Source: a virus
Virus record (IMG/VR): IMGVR_UViG_3300030118_002983
Span: 1-30,783 of that record
Length of the DNA stretch: 30,783 nucleotides
Reading direction: 5' to 3' (one strand)
The position numbers and the translations under genes are program-made. Positions 14,662 to 30,082 of the stretch are shown one piece after another. Position 1 is the first letter of the stretch. Every line of letters begins with the position of its first letter. Under the pieces are notes generated by a model. That model did not search any database, had not been told where the DNA came from, and saw only the letters and a list, made by a program, of their open reading frames with translations.

Positions 14662-15164
14662 CCACGCTTGCAGTTGGCAATTTTTTGTCTTTTCAGGACT
14701 CCATAAACACCAACACTCAAATTGGAAACTATCAAACCACTTCATTCTTTTTTCAAAACTTTTTTATAAATCAAACCATGAGTTACGACGGCGCCCAGTA
14801 TCAATTTGCGCCGTTTGGTTTTAGCGGGGTTACGATTAATAGAACGGCAGATGGTACGGACGCAAGTTTAGTGTTCCCAAACAATGCTTTGACAAGGCAA
14901 TGGGCTTTAGACGCAATTGAAAATCGTTGGTTTGTGCAAGTTGACGTTGTGTTGGTAGACGCGACCTCAACAAGTAGTGTGGATGTCGCAGGACGTGTGC
15001 ATCAATATTTCGGCCAAGTTTCTAGCGGCAAGTGGGATCAAACGTCGCTGACGCTAGCGGTTGGCACAATTTTGGATGCAGTTGGAGCGGACATCCCACG
15101 TCGAAACTTGTCTCAAGACCTCGTCGGCAATTTGCCTGTGACCAGCAATGTGTCGCTGCAGTGA
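14658..15164 (+). CDS. Minor tail (tip) protein, L-like
   Basis: A 168-residue beta-rich protein directly after the tape measure (4-base ATGA overlap, AGAGGA ribosome binding site). Landmarks are YDGAQYQFAPFGFSGVTINR, WFVQVDVVLVDATST, and the end GTILDAVGADIPRRNLSQDL followed by VGNLPVTSNVSL. The 'D-A-V-G-x-x-x-P-R-R-x-L' region and the position recall the gpL/DUF1833-type minor tail proteins that form the first ring of the tail tip above the J hub. In lambda, M, L, K, I and J follow the tape measure; here L, K and J equivalents follow in that order. No iron-sulphur cysteine motif like that of lambda gpL is present. The family call rests mainly on position and general pattern. Confidence 0.65.
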   Translation: MTTLAVGNFLSFQDSINTNTQIGNYQTTSFFFQNFFINQTMSYDGAQYQFAPFGFSGVTINRTADGTDASLVFPNNALTRQWALDAIENRWFVQVDVVLVDATSTSSVDVAGRVHQYFGQVSSGKWDQTSLTLAVGTILDAVGADIPRRNLSQDLVGNLPVTSNVSLQ

Positions 15165-15570
15165 TTTGATTGGAATGCCGTTTGAGCTAGGTGCTGACGG
15201 CGCCAACGGCAAGATTGATTGCATCCATCTCTGTTACATCGTGCTTGACCACATAGGGATTGAGGCGCCTGCCTTTAAGCAGTCTTGGTACAAAAGCGGT
15301 AAATACGAAACACTGAGGGATCTTTTGCACTGGGGCGACAGGGTTTCGGACCCTGAGTATGATGGCGATATTCTGCTCCTTCCGCAGCAGAGCTGGGCAT
15401 TTGCAGTCTTATGGCAGAAGGGCGTCTTATACATCAACGGAAGGACGCAGAAGGTGGCGTGGTCCTCGGTTCGTATGTTTACGAAGCTCCATTGCTTCCG
15501 TACGAAAAGCAGCTCATTGCAGCAATCGGGTCAAACGAGGAAGAGTATCGGCAGTTTGTCGGTGAAGTAA
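15148..15570 (+). CDS. NlpC/P60-like tail-tip protein, K-like
   Basis: A 140-residue protein overlapping the previous gene by 17 bases. It opens with CSDLIGMPFELGADG and then KIDCIHLCYIVLDHIGIEAP, the arrangement that surrounds the catalytic cysteine of NlpC/P60 peptidases (here Cys25). A YDGDILLLP strand and AFAVLWQKGVLYI follow. In active members a histidine precedes the corresponding 'G/A-V-x-x' strand; here that position reads SWAFAVLW, so the catalytic His appears missing and activity is doubtful. Such proteins are thought to open peptidoglycan during infection or help assemble the tip. After about LHCFRTK (near 15510) the sequence is Ser/Gln/Lys-rich and overlaps the J-like gene. Choice of 15148 keeps the conserved C-x-D-L-I-G-x-P-F start. 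Confidence 0.7.
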   Translation: MCRCSDLIGMPFELGADGANGKIDCIHLCYIVLDHIGIEAPAFKQSWYKSGKYETLRDLLHWGDRVSDPEYDGDILLLPQQSWAFAVLWQKGVLYINGRTQKVAWSSVRMFTKLHCFRTKSSSLQQSGQTRKSIGSLSVK

Positions 15571-18500
15571 TAAGGCGCAGCAGGGTCAGACCTGCAGGTT
15601 ATGAGCATATCCCTGATATTCGTTGTGACCCTAGCGGCGGGATACTGACTTCTGTTCTTGTCAGCCTTGCAGTTGGCGTTCTTTCAACAGCGGTTTCATA
15701 CTTGCTAGCGCCAAAACCAAGAATGCTTGGTGGCGCGGAGGATGAGCGAACGCAGCGACAGCTAGACAGCATCAGGGGTGGAAATCGATTTACACCCTCG
15801 AGGGGGTTCGACACAGTTGCGGAGCTAGCTGATTACAACTCAGCTATTCCAATTATTTTTGGTCTTTATAACGAGGCAGAGCAAGTTGGCGGCTTGCTGG
15901 TTTCCCCACGACTTGTTTGGTCGAGAATGCTTAGCTATGGCCGCCAGCAATCAGCAAAGTTAATGTTTGTCGTCGGCGAGCAAGGAAAAGCAGATCAAAT
16001 AAGTCCTGACGGAATTATTGAGCCTTCTTTGAACGGAATTTTCATTGGAAACAATGCGCTTGATTCTATTTATTCAAATAATTTTGCTTTTTACTGGAAA
16101 CGCAATACAACTGCATCTGGCTTTAGCAGGATACAAAACATAAACAGAGTATATGGCTCAGGCGGATCAAGGGAGGCAGCCGACCCAAACGCAGGGCGCT
16201 TTGCCTCTAATGATGATGTTTTCTTGTGCCAGACCCGTAGAGGTGAATTTGAGAAAGGTTTTTGCCATAGTTTTTCGCCTAGCAATAATTTGCAGTTTGG
16301 CGTTTTTGCCCCGATAGCCAATGGCAATGCTTACCGGGTGAATTGGAGAAATGTAAGCATTTTGAGCAGGAGTGGGCCAGACGATCCAGGCGGCAGGCTT
16401 AAAGCTGAGCGCAAAAAGATTTGCGGTAATGATGATATGGATGGGACGGGACGAAACTATAGCCGCCGTATGGGAATCATTAGCCATAACGGAAGCACAA
16501 CTAATGAGCTTACTGAAGTAAAAACAGTTGCAGTTAATGACGAAATTTTCTTTTTAATAAGCGATACTAGTATTCCTAAAAATTATTTAGATGAAAAAGT
16601 AACGGCTGAAGACATTAATAGCGAAATTGAGTCACAGCAGCTGGCGGCAGATGATGCAATGCAGGTCGGTGAATTGTTCTCAATCGGCTCTACTGTTTGG
16701 CAGGTTGTCCGGCGTGACCTAGCTCAATTCAAACCTGGCAAGGGCGATCAAGGGATCACATTGAAATGTATTGATGTTGATGATGCGTTCCAGCCGATCA
16801 TAGGAATTGTTAACGGCCCTAAAGTCGTGCATCCGACAACGCATATAAATGATTCAGAAGATAGCACGCCGTCTGTCGGCGAGGGGTTTTTCCCAATCAT
16901 GCGATTTGCAAGAGGTTCAATTCGGAATAGTCGTGCATGCGATGTCACTGAGGTAGGCTTAAAAAGTGTTGTTTTTCAACGCTTGAATGGAATTTGTAAT
17001 TTTATGAGTTTGCCTTCGCCTAGGCAGCTTTCCGAGTTTGACGAAGATCAAGTTCAACTGTCGTCTGGGACGATTAGTTCGCATATAAATCGTTCGTCAA
17101 TTTTTACAATTTACGTTCGTCAAGCAGGCTTGAATAAAAGTGGGGATGAATTTACCTATGAGCGGATACCTCTTGATTTTGTAGTGACAGGCAACAAGCC
17201 CGTTGCTCAATATAATTTTATCCGGATTCATCACCCTTCAACCGCATCTCCCGCTGAGTATGAATACAAGTTTGTACCGAGGAGCGGCGCTGATTTGCGC
17301 TCCCGCTCTGACGAAACTGAATACATACAATTGAATGCAGCGGCTACAGCCACCAACCCAAATTTTGCACGGTCTGTTTCTGTTGGGTCGTACGGAACTT
17401 TTAAAATTGCAACTACGGGCGAACTTGTCAGCAAAGGAACAATTAGGGCTAACAAAGAATTTTTCAACAACGTCAAGGTAACAGGCTCAACAATAAGATT
17501 TGGCTTCCCTTCTGCGGTTGGCATCGACACGTTTTTGCCAGACGATCAACCGGAAGAAACGACATTTTTGACAGCAATAGACGATCAAGAACGTCGAGAC
17601 GGCAATGTTGTAAAGCTAGTTCAAGATCCAACAAATATAAGTATTGGCCGGATGGGTGCATTTGGCTATGAAGCGTTTGGCGATTCGGACGCTGACGGAA
17701 CTCCTGTTGGGGGGACTAAAAAGTTTTCGACCACAGAGTTTGTTACCGGAGGTCGTTGGGTCAAATTAGAGTTCACGGCACAAAAGATTGCATTGCCTAA
17801 CGGACATTTTGCAAAAGTAGCTTCAGGCCAGCAAACAGCTTGGAGGACCGGAGATTATGGCGCTGGTTTAACAATTAGAGTCGTTGACAGTTCGCCTGGC
17901 TGGGATTCGCTTTCTCGCTTTACTATTCGTCGTGGTACTAACAGCACGGCTAGCCCTGCAAGCGGGACCCCGGACTATCAAGCAAGTAACCCTTTTTCTG
18001 CGGGCGGCTTAAAGATGTCTGGATATGAGTTTGTAGCCACAGGCGTAAGGACCACAGGCTCTGTTCAGGGGCGTTCGCAAGGTTATTTTGAAGAAATTTT
18101 TGGAGCCGCCACCTCTTACGGTGTTGGCACGCAAAGAACTCATGAAATAAACAAAACAGCCTCAAACGGGAAAAAAATTAAGTTACTTTTGAAGTCTGAA
18201 GTTATAAGTGGGAGCGGGCATTGGAGCGGAAGATCTCAGTTATGGACGCATCCAGTTATCAGCGTTGTAGAGGATGAAACCGTAACTGATAAAACCTGGG
18301 TAATTGGAGACACGTTTGAAGACAAAAAAACTGTAAGCGCCTCAAATATATTCGCAGCTCATTACAGGGCTTTGAATAAGCAAATTGGCATACGGTTTAG
18401 CATTGAAGCCATTGGCAGCACTGTTATTACGGGCGAGTCGTTATCTGGTGATCGTGGGTTTGCGTTTCAGACTCAGTACGCCGATATAAGTTTTTATGGC

Positions 18501-19775
18501 GATCTTGTGCAGCGTTCAAATGAAAACGAGCCTGAACACAACTTGGTGTATGTGAATGAAATGGTAGAAAATGATCCAGTGCCAGATTACGAAAAATTGA
18601 CCACGGCAGGACTGGTTTTGCGTGCTAGCAACACATTTTCTAGGCTAGACCAGCTGCGTGTGTGGCTAGGGAGAGGCGTACAGGTCCGCAGATTGCACCC
18701 TGATTTAAGTGCATACAACGATTCTATAAATACGACTAGCGAGGGTCCAAGCAACTTGTTTACGGACCTAGTGTTTTATTTGCTGACTAATTACACGGCT
18801 GGCGCGGGCAGCTTGCTGAACATGAGCGCCAATACCCCCAATCTTGTAAATGTCACAGACTTTGAGGCGACTTCTAGGTTCCTTCGGGCAAACAAGCTGT
18901 TTTGCAATGGTGCGATAACTGAAAAGGTCAATATTAGAGAATTTATCGCAAATAATGCGCCTAAGTTTTTATGCAATTTTGTGCTCAGCAATGGCAAGTT
19001 TTCGCTTTTGCCTGCAGTACCTACAGAGGTAAATGGTGAAATAAGCACCAACCCTATACAAGTAAAGCAAATTTTTACCTCAGGCAACATTCTTGAAGAC
19101 ACATTTGAGCTTGAATTCTTAGGAGCAGAAGAGCGTCGGGATTTTAGAGCTGTAATTCGCTATCGGTATGAGCGTCAAAACAAGCTCCCTGAGGAAAGAA
19201 CGCTGTCAGTAAGGTTGGCGCCTAGTAGTGACTTGTTGCCTGTTGAAACGTTTGACCTTACTCAATTTTGCACAAGCCGTCAGCACGCATTTATGGTCGC
19301 CAAGTATTTCTTGGCTTTGAGGAAACTTGTAACTCATAGCGTTACTTTTGGCACTACAATTGATGGCCTTGATTTAGCGCCAGGTGATTTCATTAAGGTC
19401 GTAACAGAGGCCAGCCCTTATACACCTGCTTCGCTTGGAACGGTAAGCAGCACTGGTGTAATTACTAGCGTTAGCGATATTGCCGATGGAACTTATTCTG
19501 TGTCATATTACACAACAACTTCACAGGACATTCAAAGCGGAAATATGCAGGTTTCTAATGGTTCGGTTACAGACTCAACTTACTACAATTCAATTTTTAC
19601 AATTATAAGTTCGTCTACATCAGAAAACATTTATTTAGTTGAACAGTTGACGTTTGAAGAGGACATGACTGTGCGGATCGTTGCTTCGGAGTACCCATGC
19701 GATGCTGCCCAAGTCAGTGAGCTAGCTAAACTAATTGCTGATGACGCTGCCTTCACCGCGCAGGGGCCACCTTAA
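15411..19775 (+). CDS. Tail tip hub / central fibre protein, J-like
   Basis: A 1454-residue protein, the probable receptor-binding hub of the tail tip. Residues ~25-75 carry LLPYEKQLIAAIG and EEEYRQFVGEVIRRSRVRP. About 79-100 form a hydrophobic segment (LTSVLVSLAVGVLSTAVSYL) ending in LAPKPR, typical of the N-terminus of J-like proteins. The following VAELADYNSAIPIIFGLYNE region begins the hub fold. Later parts are beta-rich; near the C-terminus VTFGTTIDGLDLAPGDFIKV resembles the conserved hub repeat of lambda gpJ (1132 residues). ATG 15411 overlaps the K-like gene by 160 bases; alternative in-frame starts are GTG 15459, behind AAGG, and TTG 15492. The gene from about 16500 to 18600 is visibly more A/T-rich, fitting a variable adhesion region. 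Family assignment is by layout and position. Confidence 0.85.
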   Translation: MAEGRLIHQRKDAEGGVVLGSYVYEAPLLPYEKQLIAAIGSNEEEYRQFVGEVIRRSRVRPAGYEHIPDIRCDPSGGILTSVLVSLAVGVLSTAVSYLLAPKPRMLGGAEDERTQRQLDSIRGGNRFTPSRGFDTVAELADYNSAIPIIFGLYNEAEQVGGLLVSPRLVWSRMLSYGRQQSAKLMFVVGEQGKADQISPDGIIEPSLNGIFIGNNALDSIYSNNFAFYWKRNTTASGFSRIQNINRVYGSGGSREAADPNAGRFASNDDVFLCQTRRGEFEKGFCHSFSPSNNLQFGVFAPIANGNAYRVNWRNVSILSRSGPDDPGGRLKAERKKICGNDDMDGTGRNYSRRMGIISHNGSTTNELTEVKTVAVNDEIFFLISDTSIPKNYLDEKVTAEDINSEIESQQLAADDAMQVGELFSIGSTVWQVVRRDLAQFKPGKGDQGITLKCIDVDDAFQPIIGIVNGPKVVHPTTHINDSEDSTPSVGEGFFPIMRFARGSIRNSRACDVTEVGLKSVVFQRLNGICNFMSLPSPRQLSEFDEDQVQLSSGTISSHINRSSIFTIYVRQAGLNKSGDEFTYERIPLDFVVTGNKPVAQYNFIRIHHPSTASPAEYEYKFVPRSGADLRSRSDETEYIQLNAAATATNPNFARSVSVGSYGTFKIATTGELVSKGTIRANKEFFNNVKVTGSTIRFGFPSAVGIDTFLPDDQPEETTFLTAIDDQERRDGNVVKLVQDPTNISIGRMGAFGYEAFGDSDADGTPVGGTKKFSTTEFVTGGRWVKLEFTAQKIALPNGHFAKVASGQQTAWRTGDYGAGLTIRVVDSSPGWDSLSRFTIRRGTNSTASPASGTPDYQASNPFSAGGLKMSGYEFVATGVRTTGSVQGRSQGYFEEIFGAATSYGVGTQRTHEINKTASNGKKIKLLLKSEVISGSGHWSGRSQLWTHPVISVVEDETVTDKTWVIGDTFEDKKTVSASNIFAAHYRALNKQIGIRFSIEAIGSTVITGESLSGDRGFAFQTQYADISFYGDLVQRSNENEPEHNLVYVNEMVENDPVPDYEKLTTAGLVLRASNTFSRLDQLRVWLGRGVQVRRLHPDLSAYNDSINTTSEGPSNLFTDLVFYLLTNYTAGAGSLLNMSANTPNLVNVTDFEATSRFLRANKLFCNGAITEKVNIREFIANNAPKFLCNFVLSNGKFSLLPAVPTEVNGEISTNPIQVKQIFTSGNILEDTFELEFLGAEERRDFRAVIRYRYERQNKLPEERTLSVRLAPSSDLLPVETFDLTQFCTSRQHAFMVAKYFLALRKLVTHSVTFGTTIDGLDLAPGDFIKVVTEASPYTPASLGTVSSTGVITSVSDIADGTYSVSYYTTTSQDIQSGNMQVSNGSVTDSTYYNSIFTIISSSTSENIYLVEQLTFEEDMTVRIVASEYPCDAAQVSELAKLIADDAAFTAQGPP

Positions 19776-21514: not shown

Positions 21515-23941
21515 ATGGCAGATCTAAAAATCAGTGCCCTTAACGCTTTGTCTGGGTCAGACCTAGCGGCAGCAGACCTAGCAGCAGTCGTTGACTCAAG
21601 CGCAAGCGAGACAAAGAAACTTACCGTTAGCGACCTGATTGCTTTTGGCGTCACAGTTATTAGTGACGACACAATCCCCGGAGCAAAGATCCTGTTTGCT
21701 GCAGGTGATATTGCAACAGCAGCACTTGCGGACTCTGCTGTAACAACAGCAAAGGTTGCTGACGATGCGATTACAGGTGCAAAACTTGCTAATGAGTCAA
21801 CGGTCGATTTAGTCACAACGCTGCCTACCTCTGGAGCGTTCACTGGGCAGCTCGCGTTAGACACCGACGATTCAAAGCTTTATATCTGGAACGGCTCGGC
21901 GTGGGTCAGCTTGAAAGCCGCGGGCTCGCTGAACACGGCTAATGGCAGCACAACCGGCATTGTCAACATCACAACGACAACAAGCGGTGACACGGTAACC
22001 ATTGCAGCGACGATTGATAACAGCACCGCTGCCAACCAGTTTTTAGCTGGCCCATCTGATGCAGCTGGGGCGTTGGCATATCGGACGATTGCAGGTTCTG
22101 ACCTGCCAGTCGCAACAGCAAGCGCCAAAGGTGGCGTTGTGGTCAATGGCGAAGGACTCCGCATGGACTCCAACACCCTTGAAATCGCCAACGATGTAAC
22201 CCTAAGCACAACGCACCACCTCGTCACATATGACGCAAAGGGCCTGATTACAGGCGGCAGGGTTCTTGCTGCTTCTGACCTGCCTGTTGCTACGTCTACT
22301 GCTGCTGGCGCGGTGATTCCTGGCAGTGGTTTAGCGGTAGACGCATCGGGGAATCTGAACCACAGCAGCACTGTTTCAACTGGTACTTACACCAAAGTTA
22401 CCGTCAACGCTCAGGGGCACATTACAGCAGGAGAGACTTTAGTTGCTGCGGACATTCCTGACCTCTCTGCAGCAAAGTTGACCAGCGGAACTATACCTAG
22501 CTCGTTAATTGCGAGTGACGCAGTTACAGGCGAAAAGCTTTCTGATAGTTCAGTTACGAAGTTTGGCGGCGCTGGCGCTACTGACAATATCGTTACCTTC
22601 CCAACTGCTGATTTTAAAGGTCAATTCTTTTTTGATGAAAAGAATGAAGACTTGTACGTGTCAACGGGCAACTCTTTTCTGCCAATCACAGTTATCAGCG
22701 GAAACTTGATTCTTGCTGGTGTCTATAACGCAAACACTAATCAACTAACCAGCGTTACTACGGCTGGATCGGCTGCAGGCTTTACCGCTGGGTCGGCTTT
22801 GCCTGCACCTGCTGTTACCAACCTGAACTATTACGTGGTTGTTGATACGAGTGGAACGGGCTCAGGCGCCGCGCCTGCAGTGAGCCTAGCTCCGCCAGAC
22901 ATGCTGGTGTCACTGGGTTCTGGGTCAACATTCTCTTTGGTGGATGTTTCCAACGCTATTGCGGGACAAACTGCAGCCAACATCTCAGTTACACCTGTAG
23001 GCAACATCGCTGCCAACAATGTGCAGTCAGCTCTGCAGGAGCTTGACACTGAAAAGCTTGGTGCTGCCAGCCCAACGTTTACTGGAACGGTGCTGCTGGG
23101 TCAGAACGCAGTTTTAGCGTTTGAGGGCTCCGCAGATGATGCACACGAAACCACGATCACAGTCACGAACCCGACAGCTGACCGTACGATCACATTCCCA
23201 GATGTAACTGGAAACGTTGTCACCACTGGTGATACGGGGACTGTTACCAGCGCAATGATTGCCAACACCACAATTGTGGACGGTGACATCAGTGCATCTG
23301 CGGAGATTGCAGTCAGCAAGCTGGCTAATGGCAGTGCCCGTCAACTTCTGCAAACCGCCTCTAACGGCACAGATGTTGAGTTCACAAGCAACGTAGATAT
23401 CCCTGGGACGCTGGATGTCAACAATGCGGTGACGCTTGATTCGACGTTGCAGGTTGATGGCATTGCCACATTTAATTCCAACATTGTGATGGAGGGCACT
23501 TCAGCCGATGCTCATGAGTTGACGCTGACTTGCAACCCAACAGCAGATGTAACGGTGACGCTGCCTGATGCAACGACAACAATTGCTGGCTTAGGACTTG
23601 CTCAGAGCTTCACCAAGGCGCAGCGTGGAGCGGTTGTTGCATTGACCGATGCGGCGACGATTGCAGTTGATCTAAGCCTTGGCAATAACTTCAGCGTGAC
23701 ACTTGCTGGCAACCGTACTTTGGGCGACCCAACAAACGTAACGGCTGGTCAATCTGGGTTCATTGTGGTGACGCAGGATGGAACGGGAAGCCGGACGCTT
23801 GCTTATGGCGGCACGAAGTATAAGTTTGCTGGTGGCACCGCTCCAACGTTGACAACGACTGCTGCTGCAGTTGATGTATTGGCTTATTATTGCGAAAGCG
23901 CTACGCGCATTACGGTCACCTCGCTGCTGAACGTTTCATGA
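21515..23941 (+). CDS. Tail fibre protein, repetitive beta-rich
   Basis: An 808-residue Ser/Thr/Ala/Gly-rich protein. The N-terminus (MADLKISALNALSGSDLAAA, then ETKKLTVSDLIA) is of a kind common in cyanophage structural proteins. Internal repeats include VTTAKVADDAITGAKL near residue 75 echoed by SDAVTGEKL near 335; a GQLALDTDDSKLYIWNGSAW unit near 110 echoed by GQFFFDEKNEDLYVSTGNSF near 370; and HETTITVTNPTADRTITFPD near 545 echoed by HELTLTCNPTADVTVTLPD near 670. These are typical of trimeric beta-helical fibres. The C-terminal domain (FIVVTQDGTGSRTLAYGG, YYCESATRITVTSLL) resembles fibre-tip or knob ends. It overlaps the next fibre gene by ATGA. Likely host-surface binding; receptor unknown. 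Confidence 0.8.
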   Translation: MADLKISALNALSGSDLAAADLAAVVDSSASETKKLTVSDLIAFGVTVISDDTIPGAKILFAAGDIATAALADSAVTTAKVADDAITGAKLANESTVDLVTTLPTSGAFTGQLALDTDDSKLYIWNGSAWVSLKAAGSLNTANGSTTGIVNITTTTSGDTVTIAATIDNSTAANQFLAGPSDAAGALAYRTIAGSDLPVATASAKGGVVVNGEGLRMDSNTLEIANDVTLSTTHHLVTYDAKGLITGGRVLAASDLPVATSTAAGAVIPGSGLAVDASGNLNHSSTVSTGTYTKVTVNAQGHITAGETLVAADIPDLSAAKLTSGTIPSSLIASDAVTGEKLSDSSVTKFGGAGATDNIVTFPTADFKGQFFFDEKNEDLYVSTGNSFLPITVISGNLILAGVYNANTNQLTSVTTAGSAAGFTAGSALPAPAVTNLNYYVVVDTSGTGSGAAPAVSLAPPDMLVSLGSGSTFSLVDVSNAIAGQTAANISVTPVGNIAANNVQSALQELDTEKLGAASPTFTGTVLLGQNAVLAFEGSADDAHETTITVTNPTADRTITFPDVTGNVVTTGDTGTVTSAMIANTTIVDGDISASAEIAVSKLANGSARQLLQTASNGTDVEFTSNVDIPGTLDVNNAVTLDSTLQVDGIATFNSNIVMEGTSADAHELTLTCNPTADVTVTLPDATTTIAGLGLAQSFTKAQRGAVVALTDAATIAVDLSLGNNFSVTLAGNRTLGDPTNVTAGQSGFIVVTQDGTGSRTLAYGGTKYKFAGGTAPTLTTTAAAVDVLAYYCESATRITVTSLLNVS

Positions 23942-26900
23942 CTATTCCTGGCGGTGCGCCTGCGCTGTTTTTTACCGCTGCTGCTGAAGCGGCTGCAGGC
24001 TACGCCATCGACAGGTCGCTGAGATTTAACTCTGCAGATTCGGCATATTTAAATCGAACTCCAAGTTCTGCAGGTAATCGCAGGACGTGGACTTGGAGCG
24101 GTTGGGTAAAAAGATCAGAACTTGGAGAATCAGGTTCATACTATCCACGATTGTTTGCTACAGCTCGAACAACGGGCATTTGTGAATTTAATTTCATGAA
24201 TGACGACACACTTAGGTTGCAGCTGTCTGCTGGATCAGCTGTAACCACCCAAGTATTTAGAGATTGTTCAAGTTATTATCACATAGTGCTTGCTGTAGAT
24301 ACAACTTTAAGCGATAATGCTGACCGCATAAAGATGTACGTCAATGGCGAAAGAGTTACTTCCTTTTCGTCTTATCCAACAATTTCGCAAAACTTTCAAA
24401 CTGGTGTTAATACAACTCAGTCGCATGCCATTGGCCGTTACGAGCACAGTCCTGGGGACTATTTTGGCGGCTACCTAGCCGACGTTCACTTCATCGACGG
24501 TCAAGCACTTGCGCCGACTGACTTTGGCAAAACCGATTCAAGCGGAGTATGGCAGGCCAAGCAGTATTCTCCAACTATTAGTGCGCCAAACGAAGCTGAC
24601 AAAGTTTGGAGCACAGACTTATCTGCAAGTTCAGGTTTTCAATCTAGTTATCCAGCTCGAAATGCGTTTGATGGTCTTTTTACTTCAAATAACGACGTTG
24701 GCCGAGCAGCGGCTAATAATGCTGGGTCTACGTTGACATTCGCCCCAACTGGTGGAATTACTGTCACGGACAAGATTGAGGTTTACACAAGAGACGGCAC
24801 AATTACCGTCAACGGCGGGTCTAGTTACACCAGCTCAAGCTCTTTGGCCTTCAAAGACATTAGTTCTGTATCTCCATCAACGCCTTTTACTCTTACGTCT
24901 TTGGCTGTCACAGGCACTCCCGGCAACAATGCCGGAGAAATTTATGCGATAAAAATCGATGGAGTCGTTCTGCAGGATAAACCTAAATATGGTCACAACG
25001 GTTTTCACCTAAAGTTTGCCGATAACAGTTCTGATGCGGCGCTTGGTACGGACAGCAGCGGCAACTCGAATACCTGGACCGTCAACAACCTGCAGGCTTC
25101 AACAGGCGATACAACGCCGTCTGAAAACTTTGCTGTAAGTACTTACACGGGCAATGGTGGAACCAAAGTTATTGGCCCTACTTATAGTTCTCAAGCCTCA
25201 GGAGGCAATAATGTTTCAAATATGTTTGATGGAAGCAGTAGTTCTTGGAACAATTTGACGGCGGGTAGCACGATAACATTTTCTCCCAACCCTGCTATAG
25301 CTTGCACAAAAATAGAGATCTGGGTTGACACCGACACACCAATTAGAGCAAACGTAAATGGCTCTGGCTATGGAAGTACTTTTACGCAAAGCGGTCTCGC
25401 CTACGTTGATGTGACTCCTGCCAGTGGAATTACATCTATAACTTCATTGCTTATTGATGCGCCTTCCGGTGGCGGCGGTTCAGGCGCAGGAATCAGGGGC
25501 TTAAGGATTAACGGCTCTACTGTGCTTGTCGATGGCGACGGAACTACAATTTCCTTCAGCCCGGATTTTGTTTGGATAAAGCAAAGGAACAATAACGGTG
25601 CACACATGCTGTTTGACTCGGTTAGGGGCGCAACTAAACGTCTTGTTGCTAACCAAGACCTCTCCGAAGGCACGGTGCAGGGTGTAACTTCTTTTGATTC
25701 AGCGGGATTTAGTCTAGGTAATGACGCTGATTGCAATATGAATAATATTAATCACGTTGCATGGGCCTGGAACGCCGGAGCAAATAGCAACAAGACCTAT
25801 ACAGTCAAGGTTGTATCTGACAGCGGCAATAAGTATCGCTTTGATGATTTTGGAACGAGTGCTGTAACGCTTGAATTGGCAGAAGGCAGCACGTATGTGT
25901 TTGACCAGTCGGATAGCAGCAACTCAGGCCATCCGATTCGGTTTGGAACGTCTGCTAACGGCACTGACTACACAACAGGCGTAACGCATACTGGAACGCC
26001 TGGCAGCGCAGGAGCTAAGACAACGCTCGTGTTGGCAAGTGGTGCAGCAACGCTGTATTACAGCTGCCTGAACCACTCAGGGATGGGTGGGCAAATTAAC
26101 ACAAATACCACTGCTGGAGCGTCAAACTTTGATGGCAGCACTCAAGCTGTTGTCAAAGCCAATCAGGCTAAAGGCTTTTCAATCGTAAAATGGTCTGGAA
26201 CAAATAGTGGAACAACCCTAGGTCACGGTTTAGGCGCTACTCCGGGCTGGGTGATCGTAAAAAGTTTAGGCAATGCCCGTGAATGGCTTGTTTGGCATTC
26301 TAGTTTTGGAACTGCTAGTAATACTGATTACATTTATTTAGATACATCTGGCACAAAGGGCGGCAGTGGGCCTGGCGGTTATTGGAACGCAACCGCTCCG
26401 ACTACAACAACATTTAGTGTTGGTGATTCTGCAGCAGTAAATGGTTCCGGCAGTGATTATATTGCCTACCTGTGGTCTGACGTTTCTGGGTTTAGCAAAT
26501 TCGGATCGTACAACGGGTCAGGTTCTAACGGGCATCAAATCACAGGCTTAGGATTTAAACCTAAGTTTTTAATGATAAAAAACACAACATCATCTGAAAA
26601 CTGGGTGATTATGGATAGCGCCCGCAATGATCAATTGTTGTTTGCAAATTTAAATAACGCCGAGGCCGGATCTGACGTTGTTGATTTTACTAATGATGGT
26701 TTTACGTTAAATCAGAGCGGGTCAGCCTCGAACGCATCTGGGCAAACCTACATCTACATGGCATTTGCCGATAATTTAGGCGGTGAAGGATGTGACTCAT
26801 TAGTCGACACCCCAGAGCAACGTACCGGCCAAAGTGATGACGGGTCTGGCGGAAATGTTGTTGGTAATTACAGCACCTGGAATGCCATCGCTCCAGTTTC

Positions 26901-28803
26901 AAACGGTGGGAGCCTTACAACTTTTACAAACGGCAACTTAGAGGGGACTACATCTAACAGCAACGTCTCTGGAGCCCTTGGCACTATTGGTGCATCTTCA
27001 GGCAAATGGTTTTGGGAAATTACATGCGGTACGTTTACAGGAGGAACTGGCCTAGAGATTGGAGCGAGCCAAGAAGATGTTGCAAGCACTATTTCAACCT
27101 CTGAAGGCCCAGGCACGGGGCCAAACGGATATTTTTATATCAATGACGGCAGAAAAGTAAACAATAATTCCGCCTCTTCTTATGGAGCAAGTTACACAGA
27201 TGGTGACGTAATTGGCGTTGCTCTTAACCTTGACGATGGTCAAATTGAATTTTTTAAAAACGGCGCAAGCCAGGGCACCGCTTACACAAGCTTGAATAGT
27301 GGCACGTACTTCCCTTGCGTTGGCGATTACAATAATTCAGGTACTGCTAGCTTTATTGCAAACTTCGGCCAACGCCCGTTTGTTCACGCCGCACCAAGCG
27401 GCTACAAAACCTTAAACACTGCAAACCTGCCGACCCCAACGATTGCGGATGGCAATCAATATTTTGACGTTGCGCTTTGGACGGGCAACGGTGGAACGCA
27501 AAAGATTGGCGGGGCGGTTTATAGCGCAGGTGCTACTGCGACTGGGGGATTCAATTCGTCCTATCCAGCCACAAACTTGTTCAACGGCACCTTAAGCGAT
27601 TCAAGCAGGGCAGAAGGCAATGATAATGATGGCGTTATTGAAGTTGTTTTTAGCCCTGGCATAAGTGTTTCATCGACTGTGGGTATTTGGAGCGGCAAAA
27701 GTTCTGTCGCATATCAAATCAATGACAGCGGCAGCTACACCACGTACAGCGATGCCGTTGGTTCGTTTAAAGACATATCGTTCACTGGCACGCTTACTAA
27801 CTTAAAAATCAAGCATGGCAGCAGTGGCAATGCGCCAGGTGCTTCAGGTATTCGTGTTGACGGCACAACTTTGCTAGACGGCACCGGCCCAGGTCTCAAG
27901 TTCCAGCCGGATTTTTTATGGATCAAGTCACGCTCTAGCGGAACTGAAGGCCATTACTTAGCAAATAGCGTTAGCGGTTTGACCAAAAACATGCGGTCAA
28001 ACAGTACTAATGCAGAACAAACTAATACAAACGGTGTAACTGCCGCAAACGCAAATGGTTTTACGCTTGGGGATAGTGGTCGCGTTAATGGCAGCTCACA
28101 AGCTTATGCAGGTTGGATATGGGACGCCGGATCTTCGACGGTAACTAACACTGACGGCAGCATATCTTCGCAGGTTCGTGCATCTCAAACGGCTGGGTTT
28201 TCGATTGTAAGTTTTACAGCTGGAAGCAGTGGAAGCCTTGGCCATGGGTTAAATACTGAACCTTCTGTAGTGATATTTAAGAACCGAGACACTGCTGGGA
28301 AATGGCGTTTTTATCACAAAGACGTAGGCACTAGCAAAACACTTTTCTTAAATACAAACGAAGCCGAAACTTCAAGCAGTGAGTATGTTACTGCTGTATC
28401 TTCCTCAACATTTACTGTCACAGGGACTATTTCTGGTGATGATCACATCGCCTATTGCCTTGCCCCCGTGGCGAATTATTCCAGCATGGGTTCGTACACC
28501 GGCAGCGGTTCTGCTGATGGTCCGTTCGTCTTTACCGGGTTTAAAAGCAAATGGATACTGATAAAAGTCTCAAGCACAACAAATGATTGGGTTATTTATG
28601 ACACAGAGCGCGATACTTACAACGCATCCGATGCTGAGCTTTATCCAAACACAAGCGGCGCTGAAAATACAAGCGGACCAATTGACATCCTTTCAAATGG
28701 TTTTAAGCAACGAAGCACTCATAACCATTTGAACCAAAGCGGTCAGACATATATATATGTCGCCTTTGCTGAACACCCCTTCCAGGCGGCGAGAGCGAGA
28801 TGA
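23938..28803 (+). CDS. Giant mosaic adhesin/fibre: LamG-like, discoidin-like, cupredoxin-like and SPRY-like domains
   Basis: A 1621-residue structural protein. Domains, numbered from ATG 23938: ~24-200 LamG/concanavalin-like (SLRFNSADSAYLNRTP, DRIKMYVNGERVTSF, LADVHFIDGQAL); ~225-345 discoidin-like copy 1 (FQSSYPARNAFDG); ~402-947 repeat unit A with discoidin-like copy 2, PDFVWIKQR, a cupredoxin-like insert (~618-724; His665, Cys710, His713, Met716), GFSIVKWSG and YIYMAFAD; ~1022-1150 SPRY-like (GKWFWEITCG, GVALNLDDGQIEFFKNG); ~1182-1616 repeat unit B with discoidin-like copy 3, PDFLWIKSR, GFSIVSFTA and YIYVAFAE but no cupredoxin. These are mostly carbohydrate- or ligand-binding folds, so a host-surface adhesin is likely. 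ATG 23938 is chosen over 23890 because it gives the usual 4-base ATGA overlap. Domain calls are from visible patterns. Confidence 0.85.
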   Translation: MTIPGGAPALFFTAAAEAAAGYAIDRSLRFNSADSAYLNRTPSSAGNRRTWTWSGWVKRSELGESGSYYPRLFATARTTGICEFNFMNDDTLRLQLSAGSAVTTQVFRDCSSYYHIVLAVDTTLSDNADRIKMYVNGERVTSFSSYPTISQNFQTGVNTTQSHAIGRYEHSPGDYFGGYLADVHFIDGQALAPTDFGKTDSSGVWQAKQYSPTISAPNEADKVWSTDLSASSGFQSSYPARNAFDGLFTSNNDVGRAAANNAGSTLTFAPTGGITVTDKIEVYTRDGTITVNGGSSYTSSSSLAFKDISSVSPSTPFTLTSLAVTGTPGNNAGEIYAIKIDGVVLQDKPKYGHNGFHLKFADNSSDAALGTDSSGNSNTWTVNNLQASTGDTTPSENFAVSTYTGNGGTKVIGPTYSSQASGGNNVSNMFDGSSSSWNNLTAGSTITFSPNPAIACTKIEIWVDTDTPIRANVNGSGYGSTFTQSGLAYVDVTPASGITSITSLLIDAPSGGGGSGAGIRGLRINGSTVLVDGDGTTISFSPDFVWIKQRNNNGAHMLFDSVRGATKRLVANQDLSEGTVQGVTSFDSAGFSLGNDADCNMNNINHVAWAWNAGANSNKTYTVKVVSDSGNKYRFDDFGTSAVTLELAEGSTYVFDQSDSSNSGHPIRFGTSANGTDYTTGVTHTGTPGSAGAKTTLVLASGAATLYYSCLNHSGMGGQINTNTTAGASNFDGSTQAVVKANQAKGFSIVKWSGTNSGTTLGHGLGATPGWVIVKSLGNAREWLVWHSSFGTASNTDYIYLDTSGTKGGSGPGGYWNATAPTTTTFSVGDSAAVNGSGSDYIAYLWSDVSGFSKFGSYNGSGSNGHQITGLGFKPKFLMIKNTTSSENWVIMDSARNDQLLFANLNNAEAGSDVVDFTNDGFTLNQSGSASNASGQTYIYMAFADNLGGEGCDSLVDTPEQRTGQSDDGSGGNVVGNYSTWNAIAPVSNGGSLTTFTNGNLEGTTSNSNVSGALGTIGASSGKWFWEITCGTFTGGTGLEIGASQEDVASTISTSEGPGTGPNGYFYINDGRKVNNNSASSYGASYTDGDVIGVALNLDDGQIEFFKNGASQGTAYTSLNSGTYFPCVGDYNNSGTASFIANFGQRPFVHAAPSGYKTLNTANLPTPTIADGNQYFDVALWTGNGGTQKIGGAVYSAGATATGGFNSSYPATNLFNGTLSDSSRAEGNDNDGVIEVVFSPGISVSSTVGIWSGKSSVAYQINDSGSYTTYSDAVGSFKDISFTGTLTNLKIKHGSSGNAPGASGIRVDGTTLLDGTGPGLKFQPDFLWIKSRSSGTEGHYLANSVSGLTKNMRSNSTNAEQTNTNGVTAANANGFTLGDSGRVNGSSQAYAGWIWDAGSSTVTNTDGSISSQVRASQTAGFSIVSFTAGSSGSLGHGLNTEPSVVIFKNRDTAGKWRFYHKDVGTSKTLFLNTNEAETSSSEYVTAVSSSTFTVTGTISGDDHIAYCLAPVANYSSMGSYTGSGSADGPFVFTGFKSKWILIKVSSTTNDWVIYDTERDTYNASDAELYPNTSGAENTSGPIDILSNGFKQRSTHNHLNQSGQTYIYVAFAEHPFQAARAR
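25141..26778 (+). repeat. Adhesin repeat unit A (with cupredoxin-like insert)
   Basis: The encoded unit begins TYTGNGGTKVIG and runs through discoidin-like, PDFVWIK, GFSIV and a 'K-F-L-M-I-K' segment to SGQTYIYMAFAD. It aligns segment by segment with unit B at 27481-28782 but is longer because a cupredoxin-like domain lies between AWAWNAG and KANQAKGFSIV. DNA identity is low; this is an old protein-level duplication. Confidence 0.75.
25789..26112 (+). other. Cupredoxin-like domain with type-1 copper ligand set
   Basis: Residues ~618-724 of the adhesin form a beta-rich domain: YTVKVVSDSGNKYRF, VTLELAEGSTYVFDQSD, SGHPIRFGTS, then ATLYYSCLNHSGMGGQ. His665, Cys710, His713 and Met716 stand in the order and spacing (C-x2-H-x2-M) of a cupredoxin type-1 copper centre. 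Plastocyanin uses His...C-x2-H-x4-M. Similar segments occur, to my knowledge, in other marine phage structural proteins. Copper binding is inferred. Confidence 0.75.
27481..28782 (+). repeat. Adhesin repeat unit B (without cupredoxin)
   Basis: The encoded unit runs TGNGGTQKIG, FNSSYPATNLFNG, PDFLWIKSRS, GWIWDAG, ASQTAGFSIV, LGHGLNTEP, MGSYTGSGS, WILIKVSSTTNDWVIYDTER and ends SGQTYIYVAFAE. Each piece has a counterpart in unit A in the same order. Between GWIWDAG and GFSIV only a short linker is present, where unit A has about 105 extra residues. Confidence 0.75.
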
Positions 28804-29535: not shown

Positions 29536-29720
29536 TCAGCCTATTTGCGGCGATGCTTGGCTTAGGGATTGTTTTTGGGTCGTCTGCTTTGTCCCATCAC
29601 AAATACGTACCAAATCGTGCAGGGGACAAGCTAGAAAATGGACACCTTTGCTGCACTAGAGACACAGAAACCGCCTACTGTGGTCACGGAGAAAAAAACG
29701 TACCCCACGTTCACCAATGA
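29532..29720 (+). CDS. Small exported or membrane-anchored Cys/His-rich protein
   Basis: A 62-residue protein. Residues 1-20 are hydrophobic (MISLFAAMLGLGIVFGSSAL), a signal peptide or membrane anchor. The rest is polar and rich in Cys and His: SHHKYVPNRAGDKLENGHLC, then CTRDTETAYCGHGEKNVPHV and HQ. Three cysteines and several histidines could bind a metal or form disulphides in the periplasm. It overlaps the genes on both sides by ATGA, so it belongs to a tightly coupled cluster with the small outer-membrane-like protein. There is no lipobox of convincing form. Function unknown; an envelope role is inferred from the N-terminal segment and its neighbour. Confidence 0.6.
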   Translation: MISLFAAMLGLGIVFGSSALSHHKYVPNRAGDKLENGHLCCTRDTETAYCGHGEKNVPHVHQ

Positions 29721-30082
29721 TCAAGAAAACTGTTTTTGGTGCAGCCGCTGGCGCACTTGCCTTGGCTCCCCTCTCTGCAATCGCTGGACCCTACGCAAAC
29801 GTTGAGGCAAATGCGGGCTGGAGCGGAAGCGATTACAGCGGTTCAGTAACTGACATCCACCTTGGCTTTGAAGGTGGAGATGACATCTACAGCTTCTACA
29901 TCCAGGGGGGTCCAGCTGTGGTCCAACCTAACGGCGCTGATTCTGAGCTGGAATTTTCAGGCAAAGTTGGCGGAGCTGTTGCGGCTTCTGAGAAGCTTTC
30001 CGTATATGGCGAGATCTCAGGCATCACCGGCGATGACAACAATAGCTACGGCGGAAAAGCTGGCGTCAAGTTCCTTTTCTGA
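29717..30082 (+). CDS. Signal-peptide-bearing small outer membrane beta-barrel protein (Lom-like position)
   Basis: A 121-residue protein with a classical Sec signal peptide: MIKK, a hydrophobic core (TVFGAAAGALALAPLS), and an AIA-G cleavage site after residue 23. The mature ~98 residues alternate Gly, aromatic and polar residues in hairpin-like strands (YANVEANAGWSGSDY, DIYSFYIQGGPAV, LEFSGKVGGAVAA, SVYGEISGI, GGKAGVKFLF). The protein ends in Phe, the C-terminal signature recognised by the outer-membrane assembly machinery. In lambda, lom, also an outer membrane protein, lies directly downstream of J. The barrel is short (perhaps six strands or an oligomer). Possible roles are surface change of infected or lysogenic cells, or superinfection exclusion; these are inference. 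Confidence 0.7.
   Translation: MIKKTVFGAAAGALALAPLSAIAGPYANVEANAGWSGSDYSGSVTDIHLGFEGGDDIYSFYIQGGPAVVQPNGADSELEFSGKVGGAVAASEKLSVYGEISGITGDDNNSYGGKAGVKFLF

Follow-up and report, generated by a model that had tools for sequence, protein, structure and literature searches.

The question raised by this locus is whether a phage fibre can carry a type-1 copper site. The preliminary description of the DNA recognised, inside a fibre gene, a cupredoxin-like domain with a complete set of type-1 copper ligands, and one then has to ask whether the domain is what it seems, how it lies in its host protein, whether its ligands are kept among relatives, and what such a site might do on a virus particle. The DNA concerned, here called the window, is the whole of IMG/VR record IMGVR_UViG_3300030118_002983, a virus contig of 30783 bases.

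The fibre gene and its genome

The genome looks like that of a cyanophage with a long tail, judging from its encoded proteins. The portal is ~51% identical to those of the Synechococcus phages S-LBS1, S-CBS3 and S-CBS1, which bears out the earlier suggestion of a phage possibly of cyanobacteria, and tape-measure and host-specificity type proteins are also encoded. Two side observations may be mentioned here. The frames 15148-15570 and 15411-19775 overlap by 160 bases, the later ATG lying within the earlier frame, and translation of the host-specificity-type protein (15411-19775) may in fact begin further downstream. Elsewhere, a 121-residue frame at 29717-30082 (+), which begins like a signal peptide and ends in Phe (...GVKFLF), has a product that resembles, judged by eye only, a small phage-encoded outer-membrane beta-barrel.

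The fibre reading frame is open on the plus strand from 23890 to the end of its stop codon at 28803, and could start at TTG 23890 or at ATG 23938; the latter overlaps the stop of the upstream gene as ATGA and is most likely the fibre start. The residue numbers of the ligands are counted from this ATG. The product is matched by PHROG 19943 (virion structural protein, E 1e-266) and by PHROG 24898 (tail fiber protein, E 1e-127). The features of the gene are collected in Table 1.

Table 1. Positions in the window of the fibre gene, its domains and the predicted copper ligands
Feature	Position	Strand	Basis or remark
Tail-fibre / virion structural protein gene	23938..28803	+	1621 aa from ATG 23938
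DUF7483 copy 1, N-terminal part	25540..25797	+	PF24299 over curated cut-off, model 20-112
Cupredoxin domain nested in DUF7483 copy 1	25789..26112	+	Homologues, ligand conservation, AF2 models, structure matches, Copper-bind bridge, insertion borders
Ligand His665	25930..25932	+	
Ligand Cys710	26065..26067	+	Sole Cys of the domain
Ligand His713	26074..26076	+	
Axial ligand Met716	26083..26085	+	
DUF7483 copy 1, C-terminal part	26107..26772	+	PF24299 over curated cut-off, model 105-328
SPRY domain	27004..27345	+	PF00622 E 1.6e-15, residues 1039-1152 of the TTG-start protein
DUF7483 copy 2, uninterrupted	27892..28779	+	PF24299 E 8e-101; internal control for the insertion

Identity of the domain

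The segment at issue encodes ~108 residues, NKTYTVKV...YYSCLNHSGMGGQINTNTT, which are 634-741 in the numbering of the TTG-start protein. His665, Cys710, His713 and Met716 lie within the open frame at the positions first claimed for them and in cupredoxin order, and the type-1 ligand set, in the order H ... C-x2-H-x2-M, is complete. The fibre contains the motif C-x2-H-x2-M a single time, and 0.1% of shuffles of the fibre contain it, but it is homology rather than any count of the motif that makes the domain more than a product of chance, and a chance motif is ruled out by conservation across the homologues described below.

Direct searches give little. The window domain alone has no Pfam match, no Pfam or NCBIfam family was found for the domain, the 14 members of a first family set gave no match to PF00127 at E <= 10, and a search of the PDB with the window domain alone returned plastocyanin at E 0.2 only. 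By itself the domain matches known cupredoxins only weakly; its link to them runs through its relatives. A profile of 50 domain copies (A4), built from the scanned loci, finds bacterial chromosomal proteins, one of which (L375) is matched by the profile at E 1.9e-8 and also by PF00127, Copper-bind, over its cut-off; another (L388) likewise matches PF00127 over the cut-off. When the profile was compared with that of a set of six such bacterial bridging sequences (A6), whose members match PF00127 over the cut-off, the two were aligned ligand to ligand with a probability of 99% (E 7e-18). The bridging set in turn finds plastocyanin as its best match in the PDB (E 4e-5), and its matches at E <= 1 (58/58) are all named plastocyanin, amicyanin, azurin, pseudoazurin, auracyanin, rusticyanin, nitrite reductase or blue copper protein.

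Structure prediction, proposed in the preliminary description, points the same way. The AF2 model of the isolated domain (pLDDT 85.8) has nine strands and a short helix, in keeping with the Greek-key beta-sandwich of about eight strands that defines the cupredoxin superfamily; the Cys ends the strand 92-96, and the His and Met precede the last strand (103-109), which is the cupredoxin order. With Foldseek its leading matches in the PDB are for the most part copper nitrite reductase, multicopper oxidase, AcoP, rusticyanin and a pseudoazurin with an engineered amicyanin loop, and a few Ig-fold proteins are also among the matches. Probabilities reach 1.00, but with E at best 1.2e-3 and TM ~0.5 the resemblance in fold, taken alone, is moderate. 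A longer model, taking in the whole DUF7483-cupredoxin segment (38 such fibres), has a pLDDT of 91.9 and a pTM of 0.92 and again matches rusticyanin and amicyanin in the PDB, with probability 0.9-1.0. Both models are thus confident, and their best solved matches are mostly cupredoxins. Taken together, homologues, bridges and models uphold the initial reading of a cupredoxin-like domain that lies in a phage fibre and has its type-1 ligands complete, and the window segment is almost certainly a true cupredoxin with a complete site of the amicyanin type.

Nesting within DUF7483

The placing of the domain in the fibre can be read against a second, intact copy of its host domain in the same protein. 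PF24299 matches flank the insert on both sides, both over the cut-off, and when copy 1 is aligned with copy 2 by BLASTP, the adjacent copy-2 residues 83/84 are found 110 residues apart in copy 1. This gap and the split PF24299 match identify the domain as an insertion in a DUF7483 loop. The borders given by the alignment of the two copies, ~25789-26118, are close to those originally drawn for the domain. The nested insertion provides a clean natural comparison, within one protein, of the host domain with and without the insert.

Among the fetched loci, this nesting in DUF7483 is shared by 50 distinct domain sequences, with 48 distinct uninterrupted DUF7483 copies alongside. DUF7483 is present in 66 records of phage isolates, and among the DUF7483 records listed Synechococcus phage S-B68 is alone in also encoding a closely similar domain (72% identity to that of the window). 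In a poorly resolved tree of 87 domains the DUF7483-nested copies require 2 label changes, as against ~11 in shuffles, and a single insertion event may lie behind them.

Distribution of the domain

The survey of phages for the C-x2-H-x2-M domain, also advocated at the outset, finds it widespread. By tblastn 54 phage records match the domain, and in IMG/VR at least 590 stretches match per scan. The carriers are marine cyanophages, pelagiphages and Methylophilales phages, among them the cultured S-TIM5, P-SSM2 and Pelagibacter phage HTVC028P, and in these groups the domain is located in tail fibres, in T4-like baseplate wedge and tail proteins, and in virion structural proteins. In S-TIM61 it lies in a head-module protein two genes after the portal, and on a SAR11-assigned contig near the C-terminus of a protein with a T7 tail fibre N-terminal domain. 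Outside phages it is found in giant proteins of Bacteroidetes that also contain DUF285, FG-GAP, Ig-like or DUF11/DUF7507 domains, one of them on a contig of > 1 megabase, and on contigs of > 1 megabase in two Prochlorococcus-family genomes; further matches among genome collections may come from phage contigs that were placed in cellular bins. Hundreds of ocean phage contigs share the domain and, as set out below, almost always the four ligands too, which suggests that ocean phages display predicted copper sites on their particles.

Two further observations concern the cellular sequences. One giant Bacteroidetes protein (L104) and one cyanobacterial protein (L389) combine DUF285 repeats, named from Mycoplasma, with cupredoxin-like segments. 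A 189-kb contig from the Prochlorococcus AG-418-C09 cell assembly (C3, L127/G003), of the size of a T4-like cyanophage, appears to carry a plastocyanin gene (L374, PF00127) together with the fibre domain.

Conservation of the ligands

Over the copies as a whole the four ligands are nearly always kept. Over all loci the set HCHM is complete in 276 of 288 distinct copies, a proportion inflated by the use, in three of the four viral scans, of patterns that can include ligand residues, none of the four being a random sample. For that reason a scan was also run with the N-terminal half of the domain (the first 50 residues, which hold no ligand), and this recovered all four ligands in 80/81 distinct copies. 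The codons of the two His and the Cys are mixed, CAC with CAT and TGC with TGT (114/125, 97/142, 102/137), and such free synonymous mixing indicates selection on the residues. A disulphide role for the Cys was also considered and rejected, since the occurrence of a single Cys in 236/239 domains argues against it.

The exceptions are instructive. Only one full-length copy (L347) has a change in a single ligand, Met to Leu (HCHL); an axial Leu occurs in some fungal laccases. In the remaining ligand-lacking copies either several ligands have gone together (as in YDFG, YDYR and FSQM) or the match is incomplete and stops short of the second half of the domain. The preliminary description had considered that homologues might lack the four residues at random, and this is not the pattern found, losses being mostly joint. 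A cupredoxin fold kept as a metal-free beta-sandwich building block, with the ligands as a relic, would account for the persistence of some copies without ligands (L008, L013, L014, L114, L116, L129, L392-L394), but is scarcely credible when nearly all copies keep the four ligands with free synonymous codon variation and the losses are mostly joint; a purely relic site is accordingly rejected, the ligand pattern being that of a kept function.

Particularly clear among these copies are those in the gp7 baseplate wedge of P-HM1 (L393) and MED4-213 (L392), where an intact copy stands in tandem with a degenerate one, from which the first His is gone, and the Cys also where the match reaches it. 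Such a tandem pair offers a natural comparison of predicted metal-binding and metal-free forms.

Which metal would then be held? The ligand set argues that the domain binds copper in nature, and this we consider probable. Cys, two His and Met can also bind other soft metals, and the domain is used in a spacer-like manner in many different virion proteins, so that one might envisage zinc, for example, or Cu(I) held only for stability, in a site that does no more than stiffen a spacer domain. The near invariance of the axial Met, typical of type-1 copper, is against this, as is the persistence of ligand-free copies beside intact ones, which implies that the fold does not seem to need a metal, and we regard such a stiffening role as unlikely.

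A proposed role in host contact

If copper is indeed bound, the domain would presumably be made metal-free in the host cytoplasm and would take up copper after lysis, from seawater or from the periplasm. Free copper in seawater is very low, and the copper occupancy of the site is consequently uncertain. Once bound, copper would fix the two ligand-bearing loops. These loops belong to the best-conserved stretches of the domain and could present an accessory face that touches the host surface, in the manner of inserted carbohydrate-binding modules. The argument for such an adhesive role is one of position and analogy: the domain is nested in a fibre here, is C-terminal in T7-type fibres, and recurs in tail, baseplate, head-module and giant Bacteroidetes proteins. 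We would put the role itself at slightly less than an even chance, while the overall picture of a copper-site cupredoxin inserted in the fibre and serving accessory host contact is the best explanation as a whole, and a reasonably likely one.

The preliminary description had also raised the possibility of an environmental cue. Type-1 sites are redox active by nature, as is established for the family, and with a complete ligand set the Cu(I)/Cu(II) state, or the occupancy of the site, might alter the conformation or adhesion of the fibre and so read the environment. Yet type-1 sites undergo very little structural change on redox, and neither an electron carrier that could serve as partner nor a moving part was found, so that a sensor of this kind is decidedly improbable. 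Alternatively, the copper could act as bait, being recognised by a host receptor for the uptake of copper or other metals. That the four ligands are kept nearly all-or-none in fibres and tail proteins would accord with a bait, but a type-1 copper, being buried, is poorly exposed to a receptor, no receptor is known, and the domain also occurs in the T4-like baseplate gp7, in a head-module protein and in non-infecting bacterial proteins. There is a precedent in iron, which has been proposed to be bound by HxH motifs in the fibres of marine phages and to allow Trojan-horse entry (PMC11705849); a copper version of this device is nonetheless doubtful. Both the bait and the sensor are less likely than accessory host contact.

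Extended to marine phages of several kinds, the preferred reading would have copper-loaded type-1 sites on tails, fibres and heads, with copper needed for host contact or entry. We offer this as a tentative proposal; were it true, there would be a class of virion metalloprotein adhesins not described before, and a pool of copper carried by ocean viruses. Should the sites hold copper, many abundant ocean phages would carry a redox-active metal site that annotation has missed, providing a testable counterpart to the iron Trojan-horse idea and a copper term in marine virus chemistry.

Comparison with known systems

With the cupredoxins of PF00127, and with amicyanin, the fibre domain shares a beta-sandwich of ~100 residues, a His upstream, the C-x2-H-x2-M motif and a Cys ending the penultimate strand. 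It differs from them in having no direct PF00127 match and in being an insertion in a virion fibre rather than a free periplasmic electron carrier, and its loops FDQSDSSNxGHP and YTTGVT are absent from the plastocyanins compared, which came from Prochlorococcus genomes and a phage-like contig. The preliminary description noted that the ligand spacing is unlike that of plastocyanin; the doubt this cast is resolved, since C-x2-H-x2-M is amicyanin's own loop, the natural ligand loop CTPHPFM (1aac).

Nor does the domain seem to have been taken from a host plastocyanin, as had been suggested. The family profile prefers flavobacterial secreted cupredoxins (probability 99, E 7e-18) over cyanobacterial and phage plastocyanins (55, E 1e-4), and cyanobacterial plastocyanin (petE) is rejected as the origin on these values. 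The flavobacterial proteins (L379-L383), in which the cupredoxin is C-terminal, share with the fibre domain the C-x2-H-x2-M motif, a GHPF motif and the 99% profile match; they differ in being chromosomal, one (L380) with Lipoprotein_15 secreted repeats and another (L379) with a CHRD match. In L380 the cupredoxins stand in tandem at the C-terminus, and there is no Pfam Copper-bind match. The petE of cyanophages shares the cupredoxin fold and is likewise encoded by cyanophages, but is a soluble, host-derived electron carrier with a weak profile match to the fibre domain.

The fold is a known one. For a cupredoxin that recurs widely in the virion proteins of marine phages there is no Pfam or NCBIfam entry, and no paper on a cupredoxin in this capacity was found among open-licence papers. 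A structural parallel is offered by the 936 lactococcal phages, in which Dit, major tail and neck proteins contain inserted carbohydrate-binding modules that bind hosts (PMC6669499). In both cases an additional module has been inserted, and into more than one kind of virion protein; the lactococcal modules bind sugars and their host binding has been shown, whereas the fibre cupredoxin has a predicted metal site and a putative role in host contact. A parallel in chemistry is provided by the HxH fibres, such as T4 gp37 and that of Alteromonas phage R22Y (PMC11705849). The window fibre contains no repeated HxH motifs, with a single HxH at residue 1611 of the TTG-start protein. What the two have in common is the placing of metal ligands on a phage fibre, but in the one case iron is held by HxH motifs in a trimer, and in the other the site would be formed by the Cys, two His and Met of a single domain.
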